Translations under genes and position numbers: made by a program | In this document: in pieces, positions 2 through 10,292 of the stretch | Layout: every line of letters begins with the position of its first letter | How positions within the stretch are numbered: the stretch's first letter is position 1 | The notes under the pieces: generated by a model | Told to the model about the DNA's origin: nothing | What the model saw: the letters and a program-made list of their open reading frames with translations, nothing else | Databases searched by the model: none | Source of the DNA: a virus | IMG/VR virus record: IMGVR_UViG_3300025168_014374 | Location: 1 to 42,137 of that record | DNA length: 42,137 nt | Reading direction: 5' to 3' (one strand)

Positions 2-100
2 CATTTCTGTTTTGAAATAGATGATGAATGGGTGGTAGGTTATGGATTAGATGATAATTCATTAAAAAGAAATTATAGAAACATTTATAAAATAAATTGA
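2..100 (+). CDS. Hypoxanthine phosphoribosyltransferase-like protein, C-terminal fragment
   Basis: An open frame enters from the left edge and ends at TGA 98-100, leaving 32 residues. The fragment contains FEIDDEWVVGYGLDD followed by a YRN segment. This matches the C-terminal signature of hypoxanthine/guanine phosphoribosyltransferases (FEIP-[DN]-KFVVGYGLDY...YRNLP), the strand and loop that close the purine site. These enzymes convert hypoxanthine or guanine plus PRPP to IMP or GMP. The catalytic PRPP loop lies outside the window, so activity cannot be judged. A salvage role fits the nucleotide and replication genes that follow. Confidence 0.7.
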   Translation, partial: HFCFEIDDEWVVGYGLDDNSLKRNYRNIYKIN

Positions 101-357: not shown

Positions 358-2844
358 ATGTATCAAGCAGTATCATATCACAAACGTACTAATAAAGTAC
401 ACATATGGGATGACCAAAAAGGTCATATTGAAGTAGACTATAAGCCTTATGCATATCGTAAATCTGATTATGGTAGATTTGTAGCATTAGATGGTAAACA
501 AGTTGAAAAGGTTTATAATCCAGACCCAGGAGATAGAGGTTTATATGAAGCTGATATCAATCCAGAAATGAGGACATTGATTGACATGTATACAGACTCT
601 GATGATGCATCGGTAGGACATAATACATTGTTTATTGATATTGAGGTTGATATCGAAGATGGATTTCCGACACCGGAAGAAGCTCAGCATGAAGTAACCT
701 CAATTGCAATTTATGATCAATTAGGCGATCAAAGATTTGTTTGGATATTAGATAAAGATAATGTAGTTGATAATGTAGTCCAATCTGGATATGAAGTTTC
801 ATCATGTTCAGATGAAAGAATCTTGTTAGCTAGATTTTTAAACAAGTATCAAGAAATTCGACCAACAATTATAACTGGTTGGAATATAGACTTTTTTGAT
901 ATTCCATACTTGTACAATAGAATGGTAAGGATATTAGGAGAAAAACAAGCGAGAGGGCTATCTCCAATTAATGATGTGATATGGTTAAAACATAGAAATA
1001 GATATAGAATATCAGGAGTATCATGTTTAGACTATATGGCACTTTATAAGAACTTTACTTATAATCAAGAATCAAGTTATTCACTTGAAGCTATATCACA
1101 AAAAGAATTAGGTAAAGGTAAGATGAAATATGAAGGCTCATTAAATGATTTGATGAGAGATGATATACAAGGTTATATTGATTACAACATGAATGATGTT
1201 GATTTGGTTTGGGAGATAGATGAGAAGATGAAACTTATTGATTTGGCTAGAAGTATATGTCATAAAGGCCATGTTCCATATGAAGACTTTTTATTTCCAA
1301 CTAGATATCTAGATGGTGCGGCATTAACATATCTGAAACGATTAGATATTGTATCACCTAGTAGAAAGCCAAGAACTTCAGATGAGCCATTAGAATTACT
1401 AGGAGCATATGTAAAAGCACCTAATCCAGGTAGATATAAGTGGGTTTACGACCTCGATTTAACATCTCTGTATCCTAGTATCATCATGACATTGAATGTT
1501 TCTCCAGAAACTAAAGTAACTAAATTGCAGAAGTTTGATGGCCATGCATATGTAAAAAATAAAGGACAGCATTATTCTGATGAATGGAATGGTTGGGAAA
1601 CTAGTCAAGATTTGAGAGAATATTTAGAAAAGAATAAATATTCAATTGCCGCTAATGGTGTTGTATATGATACTCAAATAAAAGGATTTCTGCCAAGTAT
1701 ATTGGATAAATGGTTTAATGAAAGAGTTGAATACAAAAATTTAAGAAAGAAGTATGAAGCTGAAGGCGATGAAGCCAAAGCAGAATATTTTGATAGGATG
1801 CAATTGGTAACTAAAATTTTATTGAATTCATTTTACGGTGTACTAGGTAATCCAGGTTTTAGATTTTTTGATCCTGATAATGCAGTAGCCATTACAAGTA
1901 CAGGACAGCAATTAATTAAGTTCACAGCTGATATTGGAAATAAATTTTATACAAGAGAGTTAGGCATAGAAAAAGATTATTGTATTTATACAGATACAGA
2001 TTCAACTTTCTTTTCATCATTACCAATTATAAAACATCGGTATCCAGATTATAATGAAACAAATGAAAAATGGATGGCAGATAAAACAATAGAAGTTGCA
2101 GACGAAGTTCAAGGATTTATCAATAGGTCATATGATATATATGGTAAACGATTTCATAATGTAGATATTCATAGATTTGATATTAAACAAGAAAATGTTG
2201 CTAAGGCCGGTTTATGGATTGCAAAGAAACGATATGCACAATGGATAATTAACGTTGAAGGCCATACCGTTTCAAAATTAGATGTAAAAGGATTAGATGT
2301 TGTTAGATCATCCTTTCCACCATCATTTAGAAAATTTATGGCTGAAGTTTTAGAAGACATTTTAAATGATACTGATAAGCCAACATTAGATGAAAAGATT
2401 CTTAAGTTTAAAGAATATATGAAAACATTAGGCCTAATGGAAGTAATGTTTCCAGTCGGTGTTAAAAATGTAAAAAAATATACTAGGAAAGGAGATGCAC
2501 CATTTGCTGTGAGATTAAAAGGCACACCAATCCATGTTAAGTCGGCATTAAATTATAATGACATGTTACGACATCATAAAATAAAATCAGTACGTGGAAT
2601 TATTAACGGTGAAAAAATTAAATGGACATATTTAAAAAATAATTCTATGGGTTTAGAAACAATGGCTATGAAAGGATATGATGATCCAGAGCCAATAGAA
2701 AAATTTGTAGAACAATACATAAATCATGATAAAGTTTTCAAATCAGCATTTGCTAACAAATTGAATGATTTTTATGGAGCAATGAATTGGGGTAGAATTC
2801 CCGAAAATAATAATTTAGGAAAATTTTTTGCATTTGATAATTAA
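358..2844 (+). CDS. 43: Family B DNA polymerase (T4 gp43-like)
   Basis: Replicative DNA polymerase with 3'-5' proofreading, 828 residues against about 900 for T4 gp43. The exonuclease motifs are visible: Exo I FIDIE (92-96), Exo II GWNIDFFDIPYLYNR (174-188) and Exo III Y276-x3-D280. The polymerase motifs follow in order: A, DLTSLYPSI (367-375); B, KILLNSFYGVLGNPG (486-500); C, YTDTDS (544-549); and KKRY near 620. Both catalytic aspartates are present, so the enzyme should be active. It should work with the clamp at 5693 and the loaders at 6848 and 8007. The ATG directly abuts the upstream stop. Confidence 0.97.
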   Translation: MYQAVSYHKRTNKVHIWDDQKGHIEVDYKPYAYRKSDYGRFVALDGKQVEKVYNPDPGDRGLYEADINPEMRTLIDMYTDSDDASVGHNTLFIDIEVDIEDGFPTPEEAQHEVTSIAIYDQLGDQRFVWILDKDNVVDNVVQSGYEVSSCSDERILLARFLNKYQEIRPTIITGWNIDFFDIPYLYNRMVRILGEKQARGLSPINDVIWLKHRNRYRISGVSCLDYMALYKNFTYNQESSYSLEAISQKELGKGKMKYEGSLNDLMRDDIQGYIDYNMNDVDLVWEIDEKMKLIDLARSICHKGHVPYEDFLFPTRYLDGAALTYLKRLDIVSPSRKPRTSDEPLELLGAYVKAPNPGRYKWVYDLDLTSLYPSIIMTLNVSPETKVTKLQKFDGHAYVKNKGQHYSDEWNGWETSQDLREYLEKNKYSIAANGVVYDTQIKGFLPSILDKWFNERVEYKNLRKKYEAEGDEAKAEYFDRMQLVTKILLNSFYGVLGNPGFRFFDPDNAVAITSTGQQLIKFTADIGNKFYTRELGIEKDYCIYTDTDSTFFSSLPIIKHRYPDYNETNEKWMADKTIEVADEVQGFINRSYDIYGKRFHNVDIHRFDIKQENVAKAGLWIAKKRYAQWIINVEGHTVSKLDVKGLDVVRSSFPPSFRKFMAEVLEDILNDTDKPTLDEKILKFKEYMKTLGLMEVMFPVGVKNVKKYTRKGDAPFAVRLKGTPIHVKSALNYNDMLRHHKIKSVRGIINGEKIKWTYLKNNSMGLETMAMKGYDDPEPIEKFVEQYINHDKVFKSAFANKLNDFYGAMNWGRIPENNNLGKFFAFDN

Positions 2845-2908: not shown

Positions 2909-3328
2909 ATGTACGGAAAAAGTTACTGGTATGGTAAAGAAGTAGAAGGAAGGTTATCTGATATAGAGACAGTATTTGTTAGAGGACAATTGCCTAAAAA
3001 TTATAAAGAATATCCTCATGTATATTTTACAATTGAATATATTGAAATGTGCTGTGTACATGGTAATTGGGATGATATTCATAGTATATTAGAGACAAAA
3101 CAGTATGTGACAATTGAAGCTAATTCAAAAACAATGGATAAGATTCCAATGTCTATATTTAATAGAGCACATGTTATATACAGAATATCAGATATCCATG
3201 TTGCCAAACTTAAGAAGACAGATACATTATCAATTGATGCCGGCTGGTATCGTGTACATCAAATTACAAAATGTAATATGATGGAAATTAACCCAGATGA
3301 TTATAAATTTGACAGAATAAACGAATAA
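2909..3328 (+). CDS. Conserved-looking phage protein of unknown function
   Basis: A 139-residue soluble, slightly acidic protein that I do not recognise. It is rich in aromatic residues (YGKSYWYGKE at the start) and has no clear catalytic motif; paired cysteines CC occur at residues 48-49. It is the first gene behind the promoter at 2864 and is followed after 5 nt by a glycosyltransferase and then the dpdA-like gene. It could belong to that modification set or be a small replication accessory; the sequence does not decide. Confidence 0.75.
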   Translation: MYGKSYWYGKEVEGRLSDIETVFVRGQLPKNYKEYPHVYFTIEYIEMCCVHGNWDDIHSILETKQYVTIEANSKTMDKIPMSIFNRAHVIYRISDIHVAKLKKTDTLSIDAGWYRVHQITKCNMMEINPDDYKFDRINE

Positions 3329-3333
3329 AAATT

Positions 3334-4500
3334 ATGAAAAGAAACGTATTTTATTTTGGTCTAGAACCATTAAAAGCTAGGTATACATATCAATTATGTA
3401 AAGAATGGATGCCTAAAACATTTGAAACATATTCAAATAAATTAAATTTTATCGATGTAGATGGAGACTTTGATGAAGATTGTGAAATTAAAGTTGGTGC
3501 AGTATTAGATGCAATTGGTAGAGGTAAATATAGTTTATCTCAATGCCAAAACTTCTTACAAATGTTGTATGATGATAAAGTGAATGACGGTGATATAATA
3601 TTCTTGCAAGACTATTGGACACCAGGAGTTGAGGCCATATGGTATGCATTAGATCTATATGGATATAAGAATGTAAAGGTATATACAATGTGTCATGCTC
3701 AGTCAGTAGATGAGTATGATTTTACTTGGCCAATGAGAGATTGGATGCGCCCATATGAATTAGGATTGGATAAAAGATTGACTGGTATATTTGTAGGTAG
3801 TTCTATTCATAAAGAACAATTAAGATCTGCCGGATTCAATGCTCCAATACATGTTGTTTCATTGCCAATACATAAACAGGCAACATTAGAAAAACTTCCA
3901 GCCGGATCATATAAAAAGAAAAATACAATTGTATATTCATCTAGATTAGATAAAGAAAAGAATCCTTTCTTTATGATGAAAGTTGCAGAAGCCTTTTTGC
4001 AAAATCATCCAGATTATGAATGGCATGTAACTACATCAGGTAAATCATTTAGATCAATGTTACCAGGTGTTATAGATGCATTAACTTTATTAGCAGAGAA
4101 GCAGCCTAGATTTAAACTAATGACAGGATTAACAAAAGAAGAATATTATACAGAATTAGCAACATGTAAGATTCAATTCAATTCCGCATTACAAGATTAT
4201 GTATCATGGACAGTTATTGAATCGACAGCATTTGGTGCTGATATAGTATTTCCATTCTTCAGAAGTTTTCCAGAATTTATAGATGCTGATAGAATGTATA
4301 AACCATTTGATGTTAAAGATGCATTAGAAACAATAGAAGATGCATTAGAAACGCCTAGAGTTCATCCACATATAGTTGAGAGATCTGATTTAGGAAGACG
4401 AATGGAAGGTTATATTATTGCTAATGATTATGAAAATGAATTATGTGTTTGGCATGAAAAGGAATTATGTGAAGCATTATTAGAACAAGAGAACGTATGA
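3334..4500 (+). CDS. GT-B glycosyltransferase (GT4-like) beside dpdA
   Basis: A 388-residue protein with two Rossmann-like halves. The C-terminal half carries the usual group 1 (GT4-like) pattern: IVYSSRLDKEKNPFFMMKVAE for the donor domain start, TGLTKEEYYTELATCKIQFN, and a VIESTAFG segment where family members bind the nucleotide sugar. The acceptor is unknown. Its stop overlaps the ATG of the dpdA-like gene in an ATGA, and it lies inside the replisome cluster, far from the large glycan island. That placement suggests DNA or a modified base as a possible acceptor, by analogy with T4 DNA glucosyltransferases; this is inference. Confidence 0.8.
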   Translation: MKRNVFYFGLEPLKARYTYQLCKEWMPKTFETYSNKLNFIDVDGDFDEDCEIKVGAVLDAIGRGKYSLSQCQNFLQMLYDDKVNDGDIIFLQDYWTPGVEAIWYALDLYGYKNVKVYTMCHAQSVDEYDFTWPMRDWMRPYELGLDKRLTGIFVGSSIHKEQLRSAGFNAPIHVVSLPIHKQATLEKLPAGSYKKKNTIVYSSRLDKEKNPFFMMKVAEAFLQNHPDYEWHVTTSGKSFRSMLPGVIDALTLLAEKQPRFKLMTGLTKEEYYTELATCKIQFNSALQDYVSWTVIESTAFGADIVFPFFRSFPEFIDADRMYKPFDVKDALETIEDALETPRVHPHIVERSDLGRRMEGYIIANDYENELCVWHEKELCEALLEQENV

Positions 4501-5681
4501 AAGATTTAATTTATTATCCATCATTATCTGCAGGAGGCTGTGCAGGAGACTTTAAAAAGAATAAAGAAGTTAAGCCCGGATTATCGTGTAGATTTTATGA
4601 TAAAGACTTTCCTGAAAGATGGAGACATCCATATTTTCTTATAACTGCTGGTCATCATTATAAATGGATGGATGCAAGAGAAAGGTATGGATTAGAAGAT
4701 GATGTCCTAGTATTAGGCGATTCAGGAGGTTTCCAATTAGCCACCGGTGCTATTAAATGGGACCCATCTTTTAAGAAAACTATATTTGATTGGTTAGAAG
4801 CAAATTGTGATTTAGGAGTTAATTTAGATATTCCTCCTAGAGCAAAATATGATGGAAAGTTTTATGAATGTATGGATATTAGTTATGATAACTTTAAATA
4901 TTTTGCAGATAATCAAACTGGTAAATGTAAATTCTTAAATGTTATTCAAGGTAATAATGTTGAAGAATATGAGGCGTGGTATCAGAAAATGAAAGATTTT
5001 GAATTTAATGGTTGGTGTATCGGAGGAGCTCAAAAAAGAGTTACTATGTTTATGTCTGCATTAGTTCCAATGATTAAGAATAGAGAATTTGAAAAAGTAA
5101 GAAATCAATTTATACATGTATTAGGTATTTCAAAAATTTCAGATTTCTTTATGTTAAGTTTCTTTCAAAAGATGGTAAACAAATATCATGGAGGTAGAAT
5201 ACAAATATCAACAGATTCAAGTTCACCTGGGCTATATCCTGTATATGGAACTTATTTGCATTCACCTCAATTAAGTAAAATGACTTTTACAGATTTATAC
5301 TTTCCAAAAGGTGAAAATCTTCCTTATAATGCTGATGACTTAGTTCCTAATCCGTTAGGACATCCAGTATCAGAAGGAATGACATTTGGTGAAGTATCAA
5401 ATTATAAAGGTGATGTGACAATGAAAATGACATTAAATAATTTATTTGTATTTAATGAAACTGTTAGGCAAGTAGAAGAAATAGTAAAATGTCATAACGA
5501 ACTACTACAAACAGTAGTACCGAGAGATTTTTATAGTGTACTGATGAGCATGGAACAAATGTTTCAAGATCCAGACAAAGCTATTCATATCTATAATAAG
5601 AATAGACAATTATATGATAGATTTGGTGGTAGCACTAGAGATTTAGTAAATAATGAAGTAATGAACAAATTTTTTGAATAA
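4497..5681 (+). CDS. dpdA: DpdA/TGT-like 7-deazaguanine transglycosylase
   Basis: A 394-residue protein with the tRNA-guanine transglycosylase fold pattern. It has GDSGGFQLATG (74-84; D75 aligns with the TGT general base in DSGGFQ), VIQGN (149-153) like the TGT VQGG, GWCIGGAQK (172-180) like GFAIGGL, VLGIS (209-213), and ISTDSSSPG (237-245), where D240 fits the nucleophilic aspartate. The C-terminal C-x-C-x2-C...H zinc site of tRNA TGT is not seen. Phage proteins of this kind (DpdA) exchange guanine in DNA for a 7-deazaguanine. Its place among polymerase and clamp genes favours DNA over tRNA as substrate. No preQ0 synthesis genes (folE, queD, queE, queC) are in the window. Confidence 0.8.
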   Translation: MKDLIYYPSLSAGGCAGDFKKNKEVKPGLSCRFYDKDFPERWRHPYFLITAGHHYKWMDARERYGLEDDVLVLGDSGGFQLATGAIKWDPSFKKTIFDWLEANCDLGVNLDIPPRAKYDGKFYECMDISYDNFKYFADNQTGKCKFLNVIQGNNVEEYEAWYQKMKDFEFNGWCIGGAQKRVTMFMSALVPMIKNREFEKVRNQFIHVLGISKISDFFMLSFFQKMVNKYHGGRIQISTDSSSPGLYPVYGTYLHSPQLSKMTFTDLYFPKGENLPYNADDLVPNPLGHPVSEGMTFGEVSNYKGDVTMKMTLNNLFVFNETVRQVEEIVKCHNELLQTVVPRDFYSVLMSMEQMFQDPDKAIHIYNKNRQLYDRFGGSTRDLVNNEVMNKFFE

Positions 5682-5692
5682 AAAGGAAATAT

Positions 5693-6409
5693 ATGGAAAA
5701 GAAAAAATTAATTAGTTTTATTGATAAGTATCATTTAGCAGGTAATGCAAATTCTGTTAAATTAGAAATAAAAGATAAAACAATGCATTGTAATTTTATT
5801 ACAGATGACCAAAATGTAATAGGCTCAGTAACAATGAAAGGATTTGATGTTGAAGACTGCATACTAGGAGTTTATGCAACATCTCAATTGACAAAATTAT
5901 TAACAGCATTAGATAATGAAATAGATTTTAAAGTTAGTAAAGCAGATGCAAGTGCATTTTCAATTAAAATATCTGATAAAACAACAAAGGTAACATTTAT
6001 GTTAGCAGATTTATCAGTTATAAGACAAGTACCAGATCTTAAGAATACACCTGATTGGAACGTGTCATTTGAATTGACAAAGGATTTTACAGATAAATTT
6101 ATAAAATCAAAAAATGCATTACCAGAAACAGAAAATTTTGCAGTACAATCAAATAATGGAAGAACTGAAATGATTCTTAATTATTCTACTTTGAATACTA
6201 ATAGAATAACATGGCCTTTGGAAATACCAGGTGCAACAGATTTATCTGCAACATGTTTCTCAGCTAATTTATTTAAAGAAATATTACATGCAAATAAAGA
6301 TTGTGAATACGGTGAATTAAATGTTTCAAGTGCAGGATTGGCAAAAGTTGTATTTAAATTAGCTGAAGGAGCATCGACTTATTATTTAGTACAATTACAA
6401 GCATCATAA
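5693..6409 (+). CDS. 45: Sliding clamp (T4 gp45-like)
   Basis: A 238-residue protein, near the 228 of T4 gp45. It starts MEKKKLISFIDKYHLAG, has the GSVTMKGFDVEDCILGVYATSQLTKLL segment, and ends in a YYLVQLQAS strand, all typical of phage gp45-type processivity clamps. The trimeric ring tethers the polymerase to DNA and in T4 also activates late transcription. A purine-rich AAAAAGGAAAT precedes the ATG. Its stop shares one base with the dut start (TAATG), so the two are translationally coupled. If the late promoters here work as in T4, this clamp is the expected co-activator. Confidence 0.88.
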   Translation: MEKKKLISFIDKYHLAGNANSVKLEIKDKTMHCNFITDDQNVIGSVTMKGFDVEDCILGVYATSQLTKLLTALDNEIDFKVSKADASAFSIKISDKTTKVTFMLADLSVIRQVPDLKNTPDWNVSFELTKDFTDKFIKSKNALPETENFAVQSNNGRTEMILNYSTLNTNRITWPLEIPGATDLSATCFSANLFKEILHANKDCEYGELNVSSAGLAKVVFKLAEGASTYYLVQLQAS

Positions 6410-6846
6410 TGAAAGTAAAATTTAAAAAATTAGTAGATACAGCTATAATTCCATCATATGCAAAAGCAGGTGATGCCGGATTAGATATGGTCGCGACTAA
6501 ACATTTAGTCAATCCAGATCATAATTTTATTCAATATCATACAGGTATTGCGGTTGAAATACCAGAAGGACATGTAGGATTATTATTTCCAAGATCATCA
6601 ATATCAAAAACAGATTTGAGATTGGCAAATGGAGTTGGAGTAATAGATTCAGGATATAGAGGAGAAGTTGTATTTAGATATAAGTTTAAAAAGGATACAT
6701 ATTTTGCAGGAATGAAAAGATATGTAGACGGAGACAGAGTAGGTCAATTAATAATAATTCCAATACCACAAATAGATCTTGAAGAAGTTTCTGAATTAAC
6801 AGATACGGATAGAGGTGATGGTGGATTTGGATCAACAGGTAAATAA
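6409..6846 (+). CDS. dut: dUTPase
   Basis: A trimeric-type dUTP pyrophosphatase of 145 residues, normal for the family. It keeps dUTP out of DNA and supplies dUMP. Conserved motifs in order: AGDAGLDM (20-27), FPRSSISK (about 60-67), NGVGVIDSGYRGEV (74-87, with the catalytic Asp in IDSGYRGE), DRVGQLII, and the glycine-rich RGDGGFGSTG at the C-terminus. All five motifs are intact. The start codon overlaps the clamp stop, and the gp44-like gene begins one base after its stop. Confidence 0.96.
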   Translation: MKVKFKKLVDTAIIPSYAKAGDAGLDMVATKHLVNPDHNFIQYHTGIAVEIPEGHVGLLFPRSSISKTDLRLANGVGVIDSGYRGEVVFRYKFKKDTYFAGMKRYVDGDRVGQLIIIPIPQIDLEEVSELTDTDRGDGGFGSTGK

Positions 6847-6847
6847 T

Positions 6848-7774
6848 ATGTTTGGAAATCAAGAACACACATTATGGGTAGAAAAGTTTAGACCCGGTAC
6901 ATTAGATGGTTATGTCGGTAATGAAGATATAATTGATAAGGTTAAAATTTATATAGAATCAGGAGATGTTCCTCATCTGTTGTTTTATGGAGGAGCAGGA
7001 ACAGGTAAAACTACATTAGCCAAGATTATTGCAAATAATGTTGATGCAGATATCATGTATATAAATGCCTCGGATGAAAATAATATTGAAACAGTTAGAA
7101 CCAAGATCAAGAATTATGCAAGTACAGTAGGATTTAAAACATGGAAGATTGTTATATTAGATGAAGCAGATTATATGACTCCAAATGGCCAAGCAGCCTT
7201 AAGAAATTTGATGGAGACATTTAGTAAGACAACTAGATTTATATTGACATGTAATTATGTTGAAAAGATTATAGATCCTATCCAATCCAGGTGTCAGGTG
7301 TTTGGTATTACTCCTCCTAATAAAAAAGAAGTTGCCAAAAGGATTGTGTCAATATTGGAAGAACTTGAAGTGTCTTATGATAACAAAGACCTTGTTACAA
7401 TTATAAACGCCGGCTATCCTGATATAAGAAGGGTATTAAATGGGTGTCAGAGGCAGGTTATTGATGGAGTATTGAAAATAGATGATACTAGTGTCATGCA
7501 AGCAAATTATATGAACAAACTAGTTGAGATAATAAAAAATGATGACAAGAAATCAGCCTTTAAAAATATTAGACAATTGATAAATGATAGTAAAGTTAAA
7601 GACTTCTCCGCATTACACAAATATTTATTTGATGAAGTGGATAGTTATGCAACAGGTCATATAGCAGGTGTTATATTAATATTAGCAGAATCACAATATC
7701 AAGATGCATTTGCAGTCGATAAAGAATTACATATCATGTCTACAATAGTAAAATTATTAAACGAATTAAAATAA
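6848..7774 (+). CDS. 44: Clamp-loader large subunit (T4 gp44-like AAA+ ATPase)
   Basis: The AAA+ ATPase that opens and loads the gp45-type clamp, 308 residues (T4 gp44 has 319). Walker A is GGAGTGKTT (48-56), Walker B ILDEAD (103-108), sensor 1 LTCNY, and the clamp-loader SRC motif is at 147-149. Start: the frame is open further upstream, but ATG 6848, one base after the dut stop, begins the family's usual N-terminus (LWVEKFRPGTLDGYVG); an upstream start would lie inside dut. The partner small subunit is at 8007. Confidence 0.95.
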   Translation: MFGNQEHTLWVEKFRPGTLDGYVGNEDIIDKVKIYIESGDVPHLLFYGGAGTGKTTLAKIIANNVDADIMYINASDENNIETVRTKIKNYASTVGFKTWKIVILDEADYMTPNGQAALRNLMETFSKTTRFILTCNYVEKIIDPIQSRCQVFGITPPNKKEVAKRIVSILEELEVSYDNKDLVTIINAGYPDIRRVLNGCQRQVIDGVLKIDDTSVMQANYMNKLVEIIKNDDKKSAFKNIRQLINDSKVKDFSALHKYLFDEVDSYATGHIAGVILILAESQYQDAFAVDKELHIMSTIVKLLNELK

Positions 7775-7783
7775 AGGAAAATT

Positions 7784-8065
7784 ATGGCAAAAAATTATAA
7801 TATACATAATATGAAAGCAGGTCCAGCACAATCAAATGCAGGTCTTAATACAAATATTAATATCAAGCCAGAAGACTTAGATGATATTGTATGTGAACAA
7901 TGTAGTAGTAAATATTTTAGACAAGTACAGGCATTTAAAAGATTATCAGCACTAATATCACCAACTGGTAAAGAACAAATAGTTCCAGTCCCAGTATATA
8001 GATGTGATGAATGTGGATTTATTAACGAATCATTTAGACCAGTTGAAGCAAAAAATAAAAAATAA
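7784..8065 (+). CDS. Small zinc-ribbon protein
   Basis: A 93-residue protein with two CxxC pairs, CEQC (37-40) and CDEC (74-77), spaced as in a zinc ribbon. The N-terminus is low-complexity and rich in Asn and Gly, and the C-terminus is lysine-rich. AAAGGAAAA precedes the start. It lies between the two clamp-loader genes, so a replication or late-transcription role is possible. I do not recognise a named family. The 3' end overlaps the likely start region of the gp62-like gene in another frame. Confidence 0.75.
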   Translation: MAKNYNIHNMKAGPAQSNAGLNTNINIKPEDLDDIVCEQCSSKYFRQVQAFKRLSALISPTGKEQIVPVPVYRCDECGFINESFRPVEAKNKK

Positions 8066-8489
8066 ACCAGCTACATTATTTGACCATTTAGCAAATATAA
8101 CATGGAAAAAGAAGCCATGGTCAATGCTTACTGAATTAGATCAAAAATCATTTACGCCATATCTAATTAATAGATGGTTATCAATGAATCCAGACTATAT
8201 AGAAATAGTTGATATGTTTCAACAATATACTATTGGTCCATTAAATAAAAAACATGTGTATCAATTATATTATGATATTTTGCCAAAAGCAAAAACATTT
8301 AATAAGTATATAAAAGGAAAGAAAATGAATAAATACAATAAAAGTTTAGTTACAGTAGTTGCAAACCATTATCAAGTTTCTAGAATAGAAGCAGAATCAT
8401 ATATCGATTTATTAGAACAAGATGAAATAACAGATTTACTAAAAATGTATGGCAAACAAGAAAAACAAATTAAAGAGTTATTAAGATGA
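8007..8489 (+). CDS. 62: Clamp-loader small subunit (T4 gp62-like)
   Basis: About 150-160 residues, unlike any ATPase. The segment FTPYLINRWLSMNPDYIEIVDMFQ, then YQLYYDILPKAKTFNKYIKG, matches the phage gp62 pattern (short family helix with PFLVNR-LS, later K-KRF-KWIKK). gp62 forms the loader with four gp44 subunits. The position two genes after gp44 supports the call. The start is uncertain: GTG 8004 and ATG 8007 lie inside the previous gene, and TTG 8043 would begin just before KNKPATLFDHL, which looks like the true conserved N-terminus. No good ribosome site decides between them. Confidence 0.75.
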   Translation: MNVDLLTNHLDQLKQKIKNKPATLFDHLANITWKKKPWSMLTELDQKSFTPYLINRWLSMNPDYIEIVDMFQQYTIGPLNKKHVYQLYYDILPKAKTFNKYIKGKKMNKYNKSLVTVVANHYQVSRIEAESYIDLLEQDEITDLLKMYGKQEKQIKELLR

Positions 8490-8923
8490 AAACGATAAAA
8501 GCAATAAAAGATTCACCGCGCGCAGAAGAAACTCCGACACATAAAGTAGTATTCAATCAAATTCAAAACGAAATTATTATGCAAAATGAAGAAGCAGTTG
8601 TATATTGCGAAAAAGAATATCCAGAAACATGTAATGAGTTTAAGAATATAATGGCAGAACAATATGTTTTATTTTGTAAGAAACAAAAGAATTATGGTCC
8701 AGGTAATATATCAGTAGGAACTGATTTAAGAACAGATGGTGATGTTAAATTATCATTAACTGGGTTATGGTTTAGAATAAATGACAAAGTACAAAGATTA
8801 AAACAATTAATCATATTAGGACATAAAGATGAAGTTGGAGAATCTGAACTAGATACATTTCAAGATCTATCAGTTTATGGTATAATTGCTCAAATAGTTT
8901 CTGCAAAGAAATGGGGCAAATAA
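8486..8923 (+). CDS. DUF1599 / Nmad1-like nucleotide-modification-associated protein
   Basis: A 145-residue protein with KKQKNYGPGNIS followed by LTGLWFRINDKVQRLKQLI and a helix ESELDTFQDLSVYGIIAQIV. This is the pattern of DUF1599, also called nucleotide modification associated domain 1 (Nmad1), an alpha-helical family often encoded beside base-modification enzymes in phages and distantly similar to MazG-type pyrophosphatases. The acidic E/D residues in the last helix could bind metal. It overlaps gp62 by ATGA. With the dpdA-like gene 3 kb upstream, a role in handling modified nucleotides is plausible. Confidence 0.75.
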   Translation: MKTIKAIKDSPRAEETPTHKVVFNQIQNEIIMQNEEAVVYCEKEYPETCNEFKNIMAEQYVLFCKKQKNYGPGNISVGTDLRTDGDVKLSLTGLWFRINDKVQRLKQLIILGHKDEVGESELDTFQDLSVYGIIAQIVSAKKWGK

Positions 8924-8958: not shown

Positions 8959-9894
8959 ATGAATAAGTTCCTAAAATATAATAAGCGAGAGCCGTTACCA
9001 GACGAGCGTAAAATTTCATATTCTCAATTTTCTATGTATTCTAGTTGTCCTAAACATTGGGAATTAGCATATGCAAAAGGTTTACGTACTTTTAGTCAAT
9101 CAATTCATACAATATTTGGTACAGCCATGCATGAAACGTTGCAACATTATTTAACGGTAATGTATGATGATTCTGTCAAGGCTGCAGATGCTATTGATAT
9201 AAATGATTATTTGAGAGATCAAATGTATACATTATATAAAGAAGCAGTTGATAAAATGGATAATCATTTTTCTAATAAATTTGAATTAGGAGAATTTTAT
9301 GAAGATGGAGTTGCTATATTAGATTGGTTTAAGAAAAAACGATCTTTATATTTTTCTAGAAAGAATGAAGAACTACTAGGAATTGAAATTCCAATTTATC
9401 ATCCAGTTAATGAAACAAATGATAAAGTAATGATGTTAGGTTACTTAGATGTAGTTGTAAGAGATAAGCGAGATAATACAATAACTATTATTGATATTAA
9501 AACTAGTACAAGAGGTTGGAATAAATGGCAAAAGGCAGATAAAACAAAGACATCTCAATTAGTTTTATATAAAAAATATTTTGCAGATCAATATGGATTT
9601 GATGTTGAAAAAATTAACATTAAATATATGATTGTGAAAAGAAAACTAATTGATGGAGCCATGTTTCCGCAAAAAAGAATAACAGAATTTGCTCCTGCAA
9701 GTGGTAAACCAACTAGAAATAAATTAGCATCAGAAATTAAATCATTTGTCGATTCAAGTTTTCATGCAGATGGAGCATTTAATTTAGATAGAAATTATGT
9801 AGCAAGTGCAGGTAAAAATAATAAAAACTGTAAGTGGTGTGAATTCAAAGATCAACCAGATATGTGTCCAATAGCTAATAGAATTAAAGTATGA
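8959..9894 (+). CDS. PD-(D/E)XK exonuclease (RecB/Cas4-like) with probable Fe-S cluster
   Basis: A 311-residue nuclease-superfamily protein. The N-terminus ISYSQFSMYSSCPKHWEL and GTAMHETLQHY (H58, E59) are typical of the RecB-like family. The core follows: GYLDVVV (D164), IDIKTS (D179, K181) and QLVLYKKYF (Q200, Y204). Cys30 plus a C-terminal trio C291, C294 and C303 reproduces the AddB/Cas4 four-cysteine pattern that binds 4Fe-4S. It probably processes DNA ends in recombination or host DNA degradation. It stands alone behind its own promoter, and its ATG may start a leaderless message. Confidence 0.88.
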   Translation: MNKFLKYNKREPLPDERKISYSQFSMYSSCPKHWELAYAKGLRTFSQSIHTIFGTAMHETLQHYLTVMYDDSVKAADAIDINDYLRDQMYTLYKEAVDKMDNHFSNKFELGEFYEDGVAILDWFKKKRSLYFSRKNEELLGIEIPIYHPVNETNDKVMMLGYLDVVVRDKRDNTITIIDIKTSTRGWNKWQKADKTKTSQLVLYKKYFADQYGFDVEKINIKYMIVKRKLIDGAMFPQKRITEFAPASGKPTRNKLASEIKSFVDSSFHADGAFNLDRNYVASAGKNNKNCKWCEFKDQPDMCPIANRIKV

Positions 9895-10292
9895 AAGTAG
9901 CAATAATAGGAAGTAGAGAATATGAGAATATTAGAAAGATTAAAGATACTCTAACTGAATTAAAAAAGAAATTTGGAGAGGATTTAATTATTATATCAGG
10001 AGGAGCTCAACATGGTGCAGATAAATTTGCAAGAAAGTATGCATTAGAGTTTGGAATTAGATATAGAGAATTTAATCCTGCCCATACAGTTAAAAATTTA
10101 TATTCAGCTATGTCAGAAACTTATTATGAAAAGCCATATCATGTATCACAATTTCATCATAGGAATATGTTGATAGCAAGAGATTGTAATGTTATGATGG
10201 CATTTATTCAAAACGGAGTTTCATCAAATGGAAGTATGAGTGCAATTAAACAAGCTAAAAAATTAAACAAACCAGTAACAATAGTATCATGA
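9891..10292 (+). CDS. SLOG-type nucleotide-binding protein (DUF2493/YspA-like)
   Basis: A 133-residue Rossmann-like protein beginning MKVAIIGSREY, then ISGGAQHGADKFARKYA (35-51), RNMLIARDCNVMMAFIQNG and a final KPVTIVS strand. This is the DprA/LOG-like pattern of DUF2493 proteins, whose members are thought to bind nucleotides or nucleotide-derived ligands. The ligand is unknown. The start overlaps the nuclease stop by four bases (ATGA), so it is co-translated with that nuclease. Confidence 0.8.
   Translation: MKVAIIGSREYENIRKIKDTLTELKKKFGEDLIIISGGAQHGADKFARKYALEFGIRYREFNPAHTVKNLYSAMSETYYEKPYHVSQFHHRNMLIARDCNVMMAFIQNGVSSNGSMSAIKQAKKLNKPVTIVS

Follow-up and report, generated by a model that had tools for sequence, protein, structure and literature searches.

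We analyzed a window comprising the whole 42,137-base IMG/VR virus record IMGVR_UViG_3300025168_014374, which has 29% GC and is a piece of a low-GC T4-like phage genome. Most of its genes are on the same strand, including those for the DNA polymerase, smX, the glycosyltransferase (GT), the transglycosylase, the sliding clamp, the dUTPase, and the clamp loader. The features at its left end are listed below.

2..100, + strand: C terminus of an HGPRT-like phosphoribosyltransferase whose gene is truncated at the contig edge (translation HFCFEIDDEWVVGYGLDDNSLKRNYRNIYKIN*, a near-exact match to the end of the phosphoribosyltransferase of L005 and L013)
358..2844, + strand: DNA polymerase B (PHROG 262, E 6e-194; Pfam DNA_pol_B, E 1e-35)
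2909..3328, + strand: smX, a conserved 139-aa accessory island protein with homologues across the GT loci
3334..4500, + strand: GT4-like glycosyltransferase, 388 aa, a candidate 7-deazaguanine glycosyltransferase (Pfam, PDB, conserved residues)
4497..5681, + strand: DpdA/TGT-superfamily transglycosylase, 394 aa, a candidate DNA 7-deazaguanine insertase (profiles, fold, catalytic residues)
5693..6409, + strand: sliding clamp (PHROG 223 processivity factor, 3.6e-9)
5693-7774: sliding clamp, dUTPase, and clamp loader block, directly after the transglycosylase gene

A first-pass annotation of this DNA had placed the GT and transglycosylase genes inside a replisome cluster, and so they proved to be, with polymerase B (358-2844) before the pair and the clamp, dUTPase, and clamp loader genes (5693-7774) after it. 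The island thus lies within a replisome operon, and in the window phage group the polymerase gene divides it into two halves. The GT gene ends and the transglycosylase gene begins within a shared ATGA at 4497-4500, both reading frames being open, and the GT gene (3334-4500) is remote from the glycan island (10763-35680), both as annotated. The glycan island itself is very large, about 25 kb as read from the translations, and contains many glycosyltransferases, sugar epimerases, dehydrogenases, and an aminotransferase. Elsewhere in the window, positions 8486-8923 give a weak Pfam match to DUF1599 ("nucleotide modification associated domain 1"; E 3e-4), and positions 9891-10292 encode a SLOG-family protein that is YspA/DprA-like (E 2e-12).

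The 4497-5681 protein had been called DpdA-like on the strength of TGT landmarks in its sequence. These were found in the order claimed, at D75-SGGFQ80, D111, Q151-G152, G172-WCIGG177, and D240, and the active site is intact: across 22 relatives, down to 21-27% identity, D75, S76, G77, G78, Q80, D111, Q151, G152, G172, H207, and D240 are invariant, while GG176-177 is kept in all but one of the 22 sequences. The zinc motif CxCxxC of tRNA TGTs, reported to be missing, is absent from all 22 aligned relatives, and the Pfam TGT family (PF01702) gave no match to the window protein. The DpdA proteins of two marine relatives, L241 (residues 308-315) and L224 (residues 305-312), carry a Cx3Cx2C cluster in the C-terminal half, which is absent from the window protein.

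Profile matches of the protein to the PADLOC DpdA (E 1.8e-4), NCBIfam DpdA (E 9e-4), and TgtA (E 1.8e-3) models were each weak alone, and the NCBIfam equivalog for bacterial DpdA (NF041059) scored 18.1 bits, below its curated cut-off of 200. When searched against the PDB, a ten-sequence transglycosylase profile matched queuine TGTs only (E 0.002), across the DSGGFQ, QG, and GG motifs; the larger DpdA profile (A8) reached no PDB TGT by sequence, and superfamily placement was settled by fold comparison. An AlphaFold model built from 22 environmental relatives (pLDDT 86.9, pTM 0.89) found archaeosine TGT 1j2b as the best Foldseek match (E 5.7e-10), along with queuine TGTs from bacteria and eukaryotes and a crystal structure of DpdA, the enzyme that inserts preQ0 into DNA (7ui4, E 2.7e-8). 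VIA comparison of the model with TGTs gave Z values of 23-26 over about 300 residues at an rmsd of 3.2-3.9. These data indicated that the predicted product is a divergent guanine transglycosylase of the DpdA/TGT superfamily with a TGT-type TIM barrel. The label DpdA-like thus holds at the superfamily level (fold, active site, weak profiles) but not at the curated cut-off for bacterial DpdA, and the proposed structure check, which did return DpdA 7ui4, matched tRNA TGTs as well. The modeled fold fits tRNA TGTs and DpdA alike, and it does not fix the target as tRNA or DNA. Positive charge at K180/R181 by the base pocket was considered as a mark of a carboxylated base and dropped, being inconsistent across the family.

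The fold, which in the model is as near to tRNA TGTs, archaeosine TGT included, as to DpdA, would suit a transglycosylase that acts on tRNA, with the GT glycosylating the 7-deazaguanine there as vertebrate queuosine mannosyl- and galactosyl-enzymes do; glycosylated queuosine in tRNA is established chemistry. We nevertheless regard a tRNA target as unlikely: the protein has neither the zinc motif nor a Pfam TGT match, no tRNA gene was found in the 42,137-base window, the island lies between polymerase and clamp, and known phage members of the superfamily modify DNA (PMC6884629). A protein target, as in type IV CBASS deazaguanylation with the TGT-like Cap10, is highly implausible, since the Foldseek match to the Cap10-CdnD complex 9ntn (E 9e-4) is far weaker than those to TGTs and DpdA, no CBASS-like genes were noticed in the island, and the location is a replisome.

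As first described, the neighboring gene encodes a GT4-like enzyme. Its match to Pfam Glycos_transf_1 (PF00534; E 2.4e-4, 21.1 bits) is weak, below the curated cut-off of 26.4, and in the PDB the family profile matched GT4 structures, WlaC among them (E 2e-4). Among members 22-36% identical, the invariant residues are E11, R16-Y17, D93, R204, E208-K209, E296, S311, and E314; a D/E-x7-E acidic pattern is present in the family alignment, and an N-terminal E-x4-RY(T) signature is invariant. Going by the GT4 family, we take R204 and K209 to be the donor-phosphate pair and E296 to be the acidic motif. The predicted product is GT4-like with conserved donor-site residues. For its N-terminal domain, on the acceptor side, no known family gave a match, and the Pfam search gave no T4-glucosyltransferase match. 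In comparisons with relatives, dN/dS was 0.03 to 0.12 for DpdA, 0.11 to 0.22 for the GT, and 0.08 to 0.21 for the 139-aa smX gene, ratios that indicate purifying selection on all three; in the closest comparisons, amino acid change was about 4 to 5 times faster in the GT than in DpdA.

Bases 2-100, missed in the first-pass annotation, are the C terminus of a phosphoribosyltransferase and mark the edge of a gene cluster cut by the contig end. The complete protein in L005 matches HGPRT (TIGR01203, E 6e-43), which in the relatives is the final gene of a 7-deazaguanine cluster. L005 and L013 are close relatives whose DpdA is 96% identical to the window protein, and in both the polymerase is preceded, in order, by genes for ribonucleotide reductase, a 98-aa protein, QueD, QueE, a GroES-like protein, FolE, and HGPRT. 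The full order in the close relatives is QueD-QueE-GroES-FolE-HGPRT-Pol-[139 aa]-GT-DpdA-clamp, and Pfam, PHROG, and NCBIfam searches of the relatives confirmed PTPS/QueD, a QueE-type radical SAM protein, GTP cyclohydrolase I, and HGPRT. Judging by this synteny, the window phage itself presumably carries FolE, QueD, and QueE. At L005 636-4666, the ribonucleotide reductase gene adjoins the cluster and the GroES-like gene lies within it. FolE was present in 15 of the 22 records tested, three large phage genomes of other groups included.

The suggested genome search for folE, queD, queE, and queC thus located the first three close by in relatives, QueC being no part of the island. QueC had no match in the window group, nor in W02 and W04; it fell below the cut-off in W01-W04 and most large relatives, the few weak partial matches lying far from the island, and the same search detected it in 12 of 14 control genomes. 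Since the island holds no QueC, its product is likely to be 7-carboxy-7-deazaguanine or a derivative, and not preQ0. The base is probably the QueE product 7-carboxy-7-deazaguanine itself, unless the host provides QueC.

Two further island proteins were compared with the same pathway. The PTPS-like protein is likely a QueD relative (hhalign probability 75%, E 2.6e-5). For smX, whose homologues adjoin GT or DpdA in phages ACP17 and X1 and also occur in a PA5oct-like phage, the structure model (pLDDT 86) and the sequence gave no clear match in the PDB. The idea that smX is a degenerate QueE without the iron-sulfur loop, raised by a weak structural similarity to QueE 6nhl (VIA Z 5.5) and by motif likeness seen by eye, was rejected at a profile comparison probability of 0.8%. 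In X1 and the window group, the smX and GT genes are neighbors. They could make up a small-molecule module, in which the GT would modify the free base, or a precursor of it, and DpdA would then insert the glycosylated base. The small base pockets of TGTs and the small size of the known phage 7-deazaguanine decorations make this order of events very unlikely.

To see how widespread the arrangement is, IMG/VR was searched with GT sequences alone, in two scans that gave at least 560 and at least 526 confirmed matches and that may overlap. Among the matches listed, 148 GT loci were kept, 51 of them with at least 5.5 kb on both sides. In these 51 loci, again among the matches listed, DpdA and smX were each found in 51, QueE in 50, and FolE and the PTPS-like protein in 46 each. 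The GT-anchored loci among the matches listed formed 83 GT clusters at 90% identity and 2 at 50%; they belong mostly to two sequence groups, and therefore 51 of 51 does not represent 51 independent events. One group has the order Pol-clamp-like gene-DpdA-smX-PTPS-GT-FolE-HGPRT-QueE and the other the order FolE/QueD/QueE/HGPRT-Pol-smX-(PTPS)-GT-DpdA-clamp.

In a set of 50,697 phage records, members of the GT family were confined to the PA5oct group (PA5oct, MIJ3, Paride, and others), X1, ACP17, BUCT-ZZ01, and Phosso, with one distant exception, a 26%-identity relative in PhiXhv/Ep032 that stands alongside other sugar genes. In the PA5oct group, X1, ACP17, and BUCT-ZZ01, DpdA adjoins the GT or is one gene off, QueE is near, and FolE is either near the GT or at another genomic site. 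Phosso has FolE and QueE alongside its GT, with DpdA about 170 kb distant. Gene order differs among all of the GT-carrying phage lineages. In Xanthomonas phage PhiXhv-12, the distant GT relative lies beside a GlmS-like aminotransferase and a deacetylase (L099 2654-5888), and a separate transglycosylase-like gene occurs in another part of that genome (L100). L190, a contig classified under Bacillota but phage-like, carries QueD, QueE, a phosphoribosyltransferase-FolE fusion, PTPS, the GT, and a weak DpdA-like gene. The fusion, at 4745-5674, has its phosphoribosyltransferase-like part at the N terminus, and a second radical SAM gene (6629-7969) is found beside the GT.

The combination also occurs in bacteria, where 3 of 136 Devosiaceae genomes encode DpdA, a queuosine-precursor-transporter-like protein, and the GT together in the following islands.

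L188, 3919-9035: DpdA, queuosine-precursor-transporter-like gene, GT
L264, 3529-9113: DpdA, queuosine-precursor-transporter-like gene, GT
L265, 131-3250: DpdA, queuosine-precursor-transporter-like gene, GT

Neither FolE nor QueE was found next to the GT in these islands, and the GT is tied to DpdA all the same. With no QueE nearby, they may rely on a different base, for instance preQ0 or preQ1, and they could be a host modification or defense module; cells, too, may use the modification. Two of the three have a phage integrase or resolvase nearby, and in the same two the resolvase/integrase is accompanied upstream by two weakly conserved genes of no known function. Across the wider order of Devosia, the seed genome was the only one of 397 sampled to carry the GT module, and the GT family was not found on plasmids.

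The gene linkage among GT, DpdA, and the 7-deazaguanine genes makes a functional link between the GT and this pathway very probable. One could still suppose that the base is a plain, unglycosylated 7-deazaguanine and that the GT is merely carried along, acting on a glycan of the host surface, on a protein, or on some small molecule; the window's glycan island at 10763-35680 does show sugar use elsewhere. Such a passenger role is quite unlikely, because the GT lies outside the glycan island and keeps company with 7-deazaguanine genes both in phages unrelated to one another and in bacterial islands, which have little else in common. We consider it likely instead that DpdA places a 7-deazaguanine in the phage DNA and that the GT glycosylates it, DNA being the probable target and the base the probable site of the sugar. 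Of the first-pass proposal that 7-deazaguanine insertion is paired with a dedicated GT, the genomic part is strongly supported by linkage with FolE, QueD, and QueE across phages and by the bacterial islands; the acceptor, the base, and the sugar stay at the level of proposal.

In the mechanism we propose, FolE, QueD (or the PTPS-like protein), and QueE would convert GTP to 7-carboxy-7-deazaguanine. The DpdA-like transglycosylase would then exchange guanine in newly replicated DNA for this base or a close derivative, via a covalent intermediate at Asp240, and the guanine set free may be returned to GMP by the island HGPRT, a role we infer with some help from the FolE fusion in L190. The GT4-like enzyme would finally attach a sugar, taken from a nucleotide-sugar donor, to the 7-deazaguanine, and the glycosylated DNA might serve as a shield against host nucleases. 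A sugar on the 7-carboxyl would form a glycosyl ester, which is unusual chemistry, and an extra unseen step may exist.

In the phage DpdA/DpdA2 pathway of phages 9g, CAjan, and nt-1 (Hutinet et al. 2019, PMC6884629), a TGT-superfamily transglycosylase is likewise encoded with FolE, QueD, and QueE, and DNA is modified after replication, as also proposed here; the authors point out that the QueC substrate could occur in a phage lacking QueC, and glycosyltransferases go unmentioned in their paper. The present island differs in having no QueC, a dedicated GT4-like GT, usually smX, and a divergent transglycosylase (18 versus 200 bits). In T4-like phages, cytosines bearing sugars are established (PMC13390438, PMC13216743). 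Like the T-even glucosyltransferases acting on 5-hydroxymethylcytosine, the GT is a phage enzyme thought to sugar a modified DNA base, but the position would be guanine 7 rather than cytosine 5 and the donor domain is of the GT4 type.

The vertebrate enzymes QTMAN and QTGAL are mannosyl- and galactosyltransferases of queuosine-tRNA. They resemble our proposal in putting a sugar on a 7-deazaguanine placed by a TGT, and they differ in being eukaryotic, in acting on tRNA, and in using the cyclopentenediol of queuosine as the acceptor. Eight phage 7-deazaguanines were reportedly described by Cui and colleagues in 2023, 7-carboxy-7-deazaguanine among them, in line with the possibility that QueC-less phages insert the QueE product; to our knowledge, none of the eight bears a sugar. 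A search of published papers returned no report of a glycosylated 7-deazaguanine in DNA or of a GT linked to it, in keeping with the novelty first claimed.

On balance, we lean towards glycosylated 7-deazaguanine being a distinct and widespread DNA hypermodification, perhaps with an odd linkage to 7-carboxy-7-deazaguanine. In that reading, the hypermodification island of aquatic T4-like and jumbo phages comprises FolE, QueD/PTPS, QueE, HGPRT, DpdA, the GT4 enzyme, and smX, and the bacterial module is a minimal DpdA-transporter-GT set. If true, it would join base replacement by 7-deazaguanines with the sugar coating of DNA, a combination not described in the literature searched. Across hundreds of viral contigs, as well as cultured phages including PA5oct and Paride, it would account for mostly "hypothetical" genes. 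Guanine that carries a sugar should alter sequencing and the action of restriction enzymes and CRISPR nucleases, and the GT and transglycosylase could serve as DNA-labeling tools. In BUCT-ZZ01, a second GT-like gene lies immediately before DpdA (L081 5007-6350), and its product perhaps adds a second sugar.
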